Shown here: positions 2,184 to 9,430 of the stretch, piece by piece | Numbering within the stretch: the first letter of the stretch is position 1 | Layout of the letters: each line of letters opens with the position of its first letter | Assembly: GCF_027474825.1 (NCBI RefSeq) | Contig: NZ_CP107030.1 | Coordinates: 3,354,529 to 3,418,528 of the forward strand | Length of the DNA stretch: 64,000 nucleotides | Reading direction: 5' to 3' | From: Maribacter halichondriae | Lineage (GTDB): Bacteria > Bacteroidota > Bacteroidia > Flavobacteriales > Flavobacteriaceae | Position numbers and translations under genes: made by a program | Notes under the pieces: model-generated | The model's input: only the letters and a program-made list of their open reading frames with translations | Told to the model about the DNA's origin: nothing | The model's database searches: none

Positions 2184-2873
2184 TTATTTCGAGCAGTTCT
2201 TAAGTCTTTCAAGGGCTTCTGCCGTAATTTCTTTTGTTCTAAGATTGTAATATTTCTTTCCTTCCGAGAGATTGGGCTTTAAGAGCTCTGTTTCACAATT
2301 GTTGTAAACTCGAGTGGCAAATTCCAATGCTTCCTTGCAATCAACGGTTTCGACGATATTGTCCAGCGAAAATTGGTAGTCTATTAACGAAGCGTCGATT
2401 TTACGATGAAGTTCATCCTCAGTTGGGATTTTACTAAAGGCTTCGGTATTTCTGGTTTCTGTAGTATTCATGGCCAGAACATCGGTCGGGTACTTGCTTA
2501 CATGTTGTTCATGGTCTTCAAGCGCAGATAGGCCGTCAAGTATATTCTGTAATGAGCTTCGCAATAAGCGTTTGGCGTCAGTCAACGTGCTTGTTTTGAC
2601 CGTTCGCTTTAAGTTTTCCTTTCCTTCCTCAATAAGTTCGTTGGCATCTTCGCAACCACATTCCGTCAGCTCTTTTTTAGTTTTTTCAATAGCATTTAGG
2701 GCCTTATACGTGAAGAAACGAACTTTGTTCAGGTCATTCTCGTCAATGGCTTTTTCCGTCTGGGTTTGTACAAAACCTAGATTTGAACTGGCATATTCGC
2801 AGGCCTTGGTCATTGCAAAGGAGGAAAATATACAAAATGCCAATAAGCATATAATCAGGTAAATTTTCTTCAT
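2184..2873 (-). CDS. Secreted helical protein of unknown function
   Basis: I do not recognise this 229-residue protein. It has a clear signal peptide (MKKIYLIICLLAFCIFSSFA) and a mature part that is rich in Lys, Glu and Leu and likely all-helical. Cysteines occur at the mature N-terminus (KACEYA), in ECGCED, in VDCKEAL, in NNCE and in the last residues (KNCSK), which suggests disulfides in the periplasm or outside the cell. The two halves each carry a Cys-xx-Ala/Leu helix start, so an internal duplication is possible. It is transcribed convergently to the upstream regulator, with only 24 bases between stops. No function is assigned. Confidence 0.75.
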   Translation of the reverse strand: MKKIYLIICLLAFCIFSSFAMTKACEYASSNLGFVQTQTEKAIDENDLNKVRFFTYKALNAIEKTKKELTECGCEDANELIEEGKENLKRTVKTSTLTDAKRLLRSSLQNILDGLSALEDHEQHVSKYPTDVLAMNTTETRNTEAFSKIPTEDELHRKIDASLIDYQFSLDNIVETVDCKEALEFATRVYNNCETELLKPNLSEGKKYYNLRTKEITAEALERLKNCSK

Positions 2874-3072
2874 GATATCGTCGGTTTATGGCGTAAAATT
2901 TGGGAATTCTAGCTATGTAAAATTAAACCATGAGGAACTTTGAAACCTTATTTTTTCGATAGATGGAGGGTGGTATCCCATATATTGGACAAACCGTTTT
3001 TTAACTAAGATGAACGGTCATTTTTTTTAACATTATCGGCATTTCAACGATGAATTATTTTATATTCGGACT

Positions 3073-5439: not shown

Positions 5440-6371
5440 ATGCAAGAAGGAATCTACGCAAAGTTCAATACTTCTAAAGGAGAAATTTTGGTAAAATTGA
5501 CCTATGATAAAACTCCGGGTACGGTCGGTAATTTTGTGGCGTTAGCCGAAGGAAATCAAGAAAATAAGGTGAAAGCTAAAGGAGAACCTTATTACGATGG
5601 CCTTACTTTTCATAGAGTAATTCCTGATTTTATGATTCAAGGAGGTTGTCCCAAGGCACAGGAACCGGTGATGCCGGTTATAAATTCGATGATGAATTCC
5701 ATCCTGAACTCACACATGAAGGGCCAGGAGTACTCTCCATGGCGAATGCTGGACCGGGTACAAATGGTAGTCAATTTTTCATAACACATATCGCAACCCC
5801 ATGGTTGGATAATAAACACACTGTTTTCGGCCATGTAGAATCAGGTCAAGATGTTGTAAATGCGATAGCCCAGGGCGATACTATTGAGACCCTAGAAATT
5901 GTTAGGGTGGGCGATGAGACCAGAAATTGGAATGCTTCCAAGGCTTTTGAAGATTTCAAAAGTTCAAAAGAGAAAAGAATCGCCGAGGAAAAAGAAAGAC
6001 AGGCGGCTGAATTGGATAAAGTTGCGGCAGGTTTTGATGAGACCGATAGTGGTCTGCGCTATAAAATCATCCAAAAAGGTGACGGGGCAAAAGCAGAAAA
6101 AGGACAAAAAGTTTCGGTGCACTACGAAGGTGCGCTATTGAACGGACAGGTATTTGATTCTTCTTATAAAAGAAAAGAACCTATTGATTTTCAATTGGGA
6201 ATCGGTCAGGTCATTCCGGGCTGGGATGAGGGTATCGCACTTTTGAAAGTAGGTGATAAGGCCCGATTCGTCATTCCGTCCGATTTAGCCTATGGAAGTG
6301 CAGGTGCTGGTGGAGTAATTCCTCCAAACGCGACTTTGCTCTTTGATGTTGAGTTAGTGAATGTGAAATAA
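5440..6371 (+). CDS. Cyclophilin-FKBP fusion peptidylprolyl isomerase (frameshifted)
   Basis: Two different proline-isomerase folds are joined in one chain of about 310 residues. Residues 1-180 form a cyclophilin ([33 protein letters not shown]), followed by a charged helical linker ([20 protein letters not shown]) and an FKBP domain ([41 protein letters not shown]). The reading frame breaks inside the cyclophilin part at 5649-5655; one extra C in the CCC run (or G in the GG) gives the usual GGCP-G-TGTG. There is no signal peptide, so it is likely cytoplasmic. This fusion is common in flavobacteria. Confidence 0.88.
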
Positions 6372-6516: not shown

Positions 6517-6612
6517 TTAATTCGAAGAATTATCAAATTCTACAGAACTATATTTTATCAAAGCAATATTAAGCGCAACAAGCACGCCAACAATTATTAA
6601 GAAGGCTATCAT
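6517..6612 (-). CDS. Single-helix micro-protein, copy 1 (31 aa)
   Basis: A 31-codon ORF begins with ATG (complement of 6610-6612) and ends with TAA. The first 20 residues are almost entirely Ile, Leu, Val and Ala, long enough for one membrane helix, and the tail is polar and acidic (YSSVEFDNSSN). The segment LVALNIALIKYS aligns with LVAINLILLAIS of the copy at 6834-6923. I believe it is a real gene because three similar ORFs lie in tandem on the same strand in an otherwise empty 920-base region. No function is known to me. Confidence 0.55.
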   Translation of the reverse strand: MIAFLIIVGVLVALNIALIKYSSVEFDNSSN

Positions 6613-6833
6613 ATTTTTGATTTTGGGGCAAAAATTCGATTAAACACAATATTTAACGCCTATATGTAAGAATTAGTATAAAGTGTTGCCTGAAATATAA
6701 GAATTTTAATTTGGTATTTGCACTTCAAAAGTAATATTGCAGAACACTTTTGCCCTTATCAATAGTGTAGGGAAGACCGTTACAGGTCAAAATTTCAAGA
6801 AGATAACGGGGTCTTAAAAGAGGTTTTAGACAT

Positions 6834-6923
6834 TCAAACTTTGCTTCGGAAGTCGATACTGATTGCCAAAAGGATGAGGTTGATAGCAACCAATATAGTA
6901 AGAATGGTGAAAAAGGTAAGCAT
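6834..6923 (-). CDS. Single-helix micro-protein, copy 2 (29 aa)
   Basis: A 29-codon ORF (ATG as complement of 6921-6923, TGA stop) encodes one hydrophobic helix starting MLTFFTILTILVAINL and ending in a short basic tail (DFRSKV). It shares ML[ST]FF at the start and IN--LLA-S near the helix end with the copy at 7013-7102. The same-strand tandem order and retained pattern (hydrophobic core, a single Asn mid-helix, short charged tail) argue for selection. It is too short for most gene callers. Confidence 0.6.
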   Translation of the reverse strand: MLTFFTILTILVAINLILLAISIDFRSKV

Positions 6924-7012
6924 ATAGGGGCTTTTCAAATTGTTATTGGGCTTCATTAAAATAACAACTGAGACCCAATTGACCCTACCATCTAATTTGA
7001 AAACACGATGCC

Positions 7013-7102
7013 CTAAGATCCTTTTGTCTTATTAAGGCTGAAGGCCAATAAAACGATATTAATTATAAGAATGATGAAAAGTACTCCAAAGAAGGATAGC
7101 AT
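7013..7102 (-). CDS. Single-helix micro-protein, copy 3 (29 aa)
   Basis: A 29-codon ORF (ATG as complement of 7100-7102, TAG stop) encodes MLSFFGVLFIILIINIV, then LLAFS and the basic tail LNKTKGS. Identical length to the copy at 6834-6923 and matching residues at both ends of the helix make these two clear paralogues. The predicted topology is one inner-membrane helix with a short positively charged cytoplasmic C-terminus. Possible roles include a small membrane-protein subunit or a type I toxin-like peptide, but neither is shown. Confidence 0.6.
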   Translation of the reverse strand: MLSFFGVLFIILIINIVLLAFSLNKTKGS

Positions 7103-7245
7103 ATTTTGTTCTAGTTTTCAATGGGGAAACACTGAAATTGTTTAAGTATGAGATAGAAGAAGTTGTAAAAGGTTGCGTTTAAGTTGAACAAAGTTACCAA
7201 AATGTATGTTATTTCTTACCAAATTGAACAAAAAGAATAAAAAAA

Positions 7246-7265
7246 CCCTGACAAAGATGTCAGGG
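7246..7265 (-). terminator. Terminator of the cold-shock gene
   Basis: A perfect 8-bp stem (7246-7253 with 7258-7265) with a 4-base loop is followed, on the minus strand, by a run of seven T (complement of 7239-7245). It lies 28 bases past the csp stop. Confidence 0.85.
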
Positions 7266-7292: not shown

Positions 7293-7487
7293 CTAGTCAA
7301 CTACTTTCACATTAACGGCGTTCAATCCTTTTTTACCTTGTTGTAGTTCAAATTCCACAACATCACCTTCTCGAACTTCATCGATCAAGCCAGAAATGTG
7401 TACAAAATGATCTTCGTTTGAACCATCTTCAGTGATGAAACCATATCCTTTGGAATCATTGAAGAATTTTACTGTTCCTTTACTCAT
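7293..7487 (-). CDS. Cold-shock domain protein
   Basis: This 64-residue protein is a single cold-shock domain. It carries RNP1 as KGYGFI and RNP2 as DHFVHIS, and binds single-stranded RNA or DNA as a chaperone in the cytoplasm. Length and start (MSKGTVKFFN) are standard for the CspA family. A perfect terminator follows. The long AT-rich upstream region (7488-7530) may hold a 5' leader, as is common for csp genes, but no specific element is visible. Confidence 0.95.
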   Translation of the reverse strand: MSKGTVKFFNDSKGYGFITEDGSNEDHFVHISGLIDEVREGDVVEFELQQGKKGLNAVNVKVVD

Positions 7488-8793: not shown

Positions 8794-9430
8794 TTAGACA
8801 GTAGGGTCAGGAGTCATGCGTAAATAAGGTTTTATTTCTTCAACCCCTTCGAGAATATTTTTCTTGCTTCATCCGTTGGGATGGCGGGACTGACCACTAC
8901 ATCCTGCCCATTTTCCCAATTGGCTGGTGTGGCCACTTTGTGATAGGCCGTAAGCTGTAACGAATCGACGACGCGCAATAGCTCATAGAAATTACGTCCG
9001 GTAGAAGCGGGGTAAGTCAATATTAGTTTTACCGTTTTATCGGGAGCGATTATGAAAACGGAACGAACCGTAAGGTTATTATCGGCATTCGGATGAATCA
9101 TTTCATAAAGGTCCGACACCTTTTTGTCCTCGTCGGCGATAATCGGAAAATTCACCGTGGTTTGTTGTACCTCGTTAATGTCTTTGATCCACTCTAAATG
9201 AGATTCCGCACCGTCGACGCTCAAGGCCAACATTTTTACGTTTCGTTTATCGAACTCCCCTTTAAATTTTGCCGCAGTACCTAATTCCGTGGTACATACC
9301 GGAGTAAAATCAGCAGGATGGGAAAAAGTATGCCCCAGCCATCACCAAGATATTCGTAGAGATTTATTGTTCCCATAGAACTGTTCGCTGTAAAATCAGG
9401 GGCTTTGTCGCCCAATCGTATTGTTGCCAT
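8794..9430 (-). CDS. 1-Cys peroxiredoxin (two frameshifts)
   Basis: The gene reads MATIRLGDKAPDFTANSS from ATG at 9430 and reduces peroxides through the peroxidatic Cys in FTPVCTTELG. That motif is only in frame after adding one base to the A-run at 9323-9327. A second lost base in the C-run at 8844-8847 truncates the protein at FSKGLKK. Restored, it continues as KGVEEIKPYLRMTPDPTV, the normal Prx6-type C-terminus. The full protein is about 212 residues. Both breaks lie in homopolymers, so I treat this as one intact gene. It is likely a cytoplasmic antioxidant enzyme. Confidence 0.88.

Follow-up and report, generated by a model that had tools for sequence, protein, structure and literature searches.

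The analysed window, a 64,000-nt stretch of the Maribacter halichondriae genome, contains three short ORFs on its minus strand between a convergent gene for an FKBP-type PPIase (5646..6371, plus strand) and csp, which encodes a cold-shock protein (7293..7487, minus strand). Counted from csp, these are ORF3 (7013..7102, minus strand, 29 aa, MLSFFGVLFIILIINIVLLAFSLNKTKGS), ORF2 (6834..6923, minus strand, 29 aa, MLTFFTILTILVAINLILLAISIDFRSKV) and ORF1 (6517..6612, minus strand, 31 aa, MIAFLIIVGVLVALNIALIKYSSVEFDNSSN). The minus-strand frames of 31, 29 and 29 codons that an earlier note had read between the PPIase and csp are confirmed, and all are intact. The csp of the window is 100% identical to that of a congener (G001), and csp adjoins the microgenes in most loci. 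It is followed by an intrinsic terminator (CCCTGACA..TGTCAGGG plus T7; 7239..7265, minus strand) that is conserved in the congeners; across the loci, terminator-like hairpins lie upstream of 30 out of 56 first ORFs versus 0 out of 36 later ones.

A mechanical ORF call starts ORF2 at position 6956, where there is an ATG, and so makes it 40 aa long. The 29-codon form is likelier, because ORF2 of the sister species aligns with the 29-aa start and the ATG at 6956 lies just ~5 nt downstream of the −10 box predicted for its promoter. ORFs with the family pattern described below were absent from all 2000 dinucleotide shuffles of the gap. Under a looser definition of hydrophobic micro-ORFs, the real gap contains three, whereas 1962 of the 2000 shuffles contain none and 38 contain one.

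Some neighbouring genes show seeming frameshifts in the window assembly. The PPIase appears to be spread over two frames, 5440-5784 and 5646-6371, which overlap at 5646-5784; this points to either a frameshift or an indel in the assembly. Similarly, the peroxiredoxin ORF at 8832-9233 encodes 133 aa compared with 212 aa in both congeners, which suggests a frameshift or an assembly error. The three micro-ORFs are nevertheless intact and match their relatives.

A family of predicted membrane microproteins in Flavobacteriaceae

All three ORFs match a single family profile (E=4.4e-10 for ORF3, E=7.2e-10 for ORF2 and, for ORF1, a profile-profile match with a probability of 95%), which bears out the proposal that they are related to one another. 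The family consensus is M-x-T-F-F-x-I-L-x-x-L-L-x-I-N-x-x-L-L-x-x-S-V-N, with F4, L11, N15, L18, L19 and S22 as the least variable residues. Residues F4, L8, L11, N15, L18 and S22 form a shared conserved helix face, and the helical conservation moment peaks at 100 degrees. Since the pattern used to collect members fixed N15 and restricted positions 4 and 5, the helix-period test was redone without positions 4, 5 and 15 and again gave the 100-degree peak (p=0.0001). AlphaFold2 models ORF1 as a single helix spanning residues 2-30 (pLDDT 91). In most members the N-terminus is neutral and the C-tail has a net positive charge, so that, by the positive-inside rule, they are probably oriented N-out/C-in.

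No Pfam or NCBIfam family scored above its curated cut-off against ORF1-3, with scattered single weak matches among 48 members, in support of the earlier remark that such genes are normally missed. None of the 48 members matched anti-phage defence systems in PADLOC, searches of solved structures returned no match to the microproteins, and a description of the family was not found in the literature. In the window, no Rfam family reaches its gathering score, and the laxer matches look like chance.

Both sister species of the genus have ORF1, ORF2 and ORF3 in unchanged order, at identities of 74%, 45-52% and 62-66%, respectively. With the PPIase as synteny anchor, 80 named loci (815 kb) were collected, in which the family pattern picks out 65 ORFs that begin with ATG, each of them on the expected strand; the micro-ORF starts are 117-2427 nt from the end of the PPIase. 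One to three homologues are present in the csp/FKBP gap of ~55 Flavobacteriaceae loci (whole-genome matches included), and among the anchored loci this site has no homologue in most Flavobacterium loci, in Tenacibaculum and in several other genera. A 48-row family profile (E<=0.01) matched 221 out of 397 Flavobacteriaceae genomes. In a phylum-wide sample, 8 of 296 genomes matched, all of them Flavobacteriaceae, and no match was found beyond that family.

Over 26 synteny-chosen gene pairs, the pooled dN/dS is ~0.12 (pS 0.70, pN 0.20), an approximate value given that synonymous sites are near saturation, and changes at the three codon positions number 204/80/339. The synteny-chosen pairs were introduced because the first set had been picked partly by protein identity; those identity-chosen pairs give a dN/dS of 0.10 and an observed pN/pS of 0.23, against a minimum of 0.67 in neutral simulation. 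As judged from these comparisons, the microproteins are under purifying selection. The selection suspected in the earlier note is thus upheld by the conserved starts, stops, order and protein pattern as well as by the low dN/dS across relatives, and the helix pattern recurs, in congeners and in many other Flavobacteriaceae. We conclude from the sequence evidence that the ORFs are real genes and that they belong to a hitherto undescribed family, in Flavobacteriaceae, of predicted single-pass membrane microproteins.

Paralogues occur at two further sites. One class adjoins crcB and has a longer, conserved tail; another adjoins a gene that we take to be ung, judging from its sequence and not from a profile search. 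Compared with the csp-linked profile, the crcB- and ung-linked profiles yield hhalign probabilities of 98% and 97.5%, which indicates that these proteins share ancestry with the csp-linked ones. Three csp-linked copies and one crcB-linked copy were found in the present genome, and, within the genus, it is ORF1 that best matches the profile of the ung-linked class. The ung-linked locus L045 holds two different family ORFs, making this a second type of site with multiple copies.

Predicted promoter elements of the individual copies

ORF3 and ORF2 are each preceded by −35/−10 elements at fixed spacing that are shared with other ECF-linked genes. The first of these predicted ECF-type promoters, P1, lies ahead of ORF3 as ACGCAACC-N16-ATCTC (7150..7178, minus strand) and has the consensus ACGCAACC-N15/16-ATCTA ahead of first copies. 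It is found in 41 of the 56 first micro-ORFs, with a spacer of 15/16 and the −10 box ~50 nt before the ATG, against 1.5% in shuffles. The second, P2, precedes ORF2 as GTAGGG-N16-TGTTAT (6961..6988, minus strand), and its consensus ahead of second copies is GTAGGG-N16-TGTTA; it occurs in 33 of 36 later micro-ORFs and in 9 single or first ones (shuffles, 0.05%). P1 and P2 are never found on one micro-ORF. Among the csp-linked copies of all fetched loci, 52 have P1, 47 have P2 and 16, ORF1-type copies among them, have neither. P1 is also present in 12 of 17 ung-linked copies, and all 13 crcB-linked copies have a housekeeping TAnnTTTG box. The crcB-linked copies look constitutive and so speak against stress induction as a trait common to all members.

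Both elements are also found before unrelated genes. P1 is well above a reversed control in 60 family genomes, with a spacer of nearly always 16 nt, and is a genome-wide element that precedes lipoprotein genes, trhO and further microproteins. In the present genome it additionally lies between recA and trhO, the rhodanese being confirmed by Pfam. P2 likewise occupies, in this genome, the space between the gene for an ECF sigma factor and its FecR gene, and it precedes FecR genes in several others. The sequence ACGCAACC was not found in the literature on Bacteroidetes promoters. In F. psychrophilum, yceA (trhO) appears under the ECF-type motif SM6 (PMC9723704), so P1 probably belongs to the same or a related regulon, a match based on this one target in common and on −10 boxes that resemble each other (ATCT versus a CGT box).

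Several sites with P1 have other contents. In L191 (1501-1860; G000:C1:1977575), P1 between recA and trhO is followed by a hairpin plus T-run and by no ORF, and the stretch after it looks similar in L192, L193 and L201; it is a possible P1-driven small RNA. In L198, L230, L232, L233, L239, L244 and L251, P1 is followed by a conserved 30-aa ORF, e.g. MKFFKQTILIKALGVSVTVLINSNCKADGG, whose tail, CKADGG, does not vary among the copies seen.

Upstream of ORF1, a conserved block with GGCGTTA (6645..6660, minus strand) is a possible third promoter. GCGTTA is common to the window, L005, L078 and L104, and L007 has ACGTTA; no clear −35 element was found in this block. Just upstream of P1 lies a housekeeping-type −7 box, TAACTTTG (7189..7196, minus strand), which may act as a second promoter; TAnnTTTG ~90-97 nt before the ATG is seen in the window and at roughly twelve further loci. 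We rejected TAnnTTTG as the principal promoter shared by all first copies (14 of 56, versus 14% in shuffles), although where present it clusters ~92 nt before the ATG. We also considered the conserved upstream blocks as RNA leaders and rejected this, the blocks being short, with a 15-17 nt spacer and ~50 nt before the ATG; promoters fit them better because of the two-block layout and the presence before unrelated genes.

Proposed function and alternative explanations

From the sequence, real genes of one family with a common helix face and distinct promoter motifs can be recognized, and we infer stress induction, membrane insertion and partner binding. With moderate confidence, we propose stress-induced single-pass membrane microproteins that act via the conserved helix face, ORF3 and ORF2 having their own ECF-type promoters; the promoters of these two copies, on which the earlier note does not remark, favour stress-induced regulators. 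P1 would be read by a sigma factor whose flavobacterial regulon includes yceA/trhO and type IX secretion genes, as the SM6 regulon does (PMC9723704), and P2 by the ECF sigma factor whose gene adjoins the FecR gene with a P2 element of its own. Under envelope or nutrient stress, each sigma factor would then make its own microprotein copy. The helix would insert in the inner membrane, probably N-out/C-in given the neutral N-terminus and basic C-tail, and its Asn/Ser face may bind a second copy of the helix or a membrane partner, altering the activity or stability of that partner.

The closest known parallels include the stress-induced single-helix small proteins YohP, DinQ and TisB of E. coli. 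They resemble the present proteins in having fewer than ~50 aa, one helix and stress-linked expression, which for the present proteins is predicted (available portions of PMC12719787 and PMC3567139); the likeness lies in size, helix and predicted promoters, and no sequence relation is claimed. Unlike them, the flavobacterial proteins have as many as four paralogues in a genome, each at a fixed locus within a single family and with sigma-type promoters that differ between copies, and they gave no antisense signal. The SM6 regulon of F. psychrophilum (PMC9723704) also has an ECF-type promoter ahead of yceA/trhO and serves envelope functions, but its −10 box is described as CGT, as opposed to ATCT or GTCT here, and the selection in Table 2 of that paper is without such microproteins. 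As for ECF sigma/FecR pairs, P2 lies between the two genes in this genome, but here a distant microprotein gene has the same promoter, for which we found no published report. What appears to be new is the microprotein family itself and the different promoters on its different copies.

Single helices of 29-31 aa, present in tandem and behind stress-type promoters, could also be read as marks of type I toxin-like or TisB/DinQ-like peptides, which depolarise the membrane under stress and are restrained by antisense RNAs (for DinQ, available portions of PMC3567139). This seems unlikely given that the genes are vertically conserved at constant positions across many genera, and given the housekeeping boxes and conserved C-tail of the crcB-linked copies. 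Opposite-strand TAnnTTTG boxes, sought as a sign of antisense RNA genes, gave no signal above shuffles (15 versus 14 of 92). The crcB-linked class with its housekeeping promoter, and the helix face with its Asn and Ser, would be compatible with small constitutive structural subunits of a membrane complex, of the CydX/KdpF kind. We likewise give this little weight: there is no partner operon, ORF2 and ORF3 each have their own predicted promoter, csp is cut off from the first copy by a terminator, and neither csp nor the PPIase gene on the other flank encodes a membrane complex. That DNA or RNA elements are conserved and the ORFs incidental is very improbable; the promoters are themselves conserved DNA, but the changes by codon position and the dN/dS of 0.12 contradict this explanation, and Rfam gave no family in the window at gathering score.

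P2 is shared by genes of the ORF2 type and by the FecR gene in an ECF pair, which raises the idea of feedback: the helices would bind FecR-type anti-sigma factors, or the intramembrane protease that cuts them, or would compete with either. Indeed, E. coli RseP cleaves both FecR and small membrane proteins (available portions of PMC10470546). The paralogues would then be separate outputs of different ECF sigma factors with feedback on the FecR-type anti-sigma/protease step. We regard this as a doubtful alternative, kept because P2 ties one copy to the FecR system: it was proposed on promoter sharing, any physical or genetic link to that system is putative, and the lipoprotein and trhO genes have P1 and need no such role. 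If it were true, a protein of ~30 residues would tune envelope-stress signalling across a bacterial family. On the preferred reading of stress-induced membrane microproteins, the family would be a testable model for the role of stress-induced single-helix proteins, and the paralogue-specific promoters would give direct access to two flavobacterial ECF regulons about which little is known. It adds conserved genes, several per genome, beyond Pfam/NCBIfam models in a major marine bacterial family, and the cultivated Zobellia, Maribacter, Cellulophaga and Arenibacter carry the microgenes, so mutants and reporters are feasible.

Among the FecR loci, L216 contains a lipoprotein-like ORF (2221-3027) divergent from the ECF sigma/FecR genes, and ORFs similar to it adjoin the FecR genes in L219 and L226.
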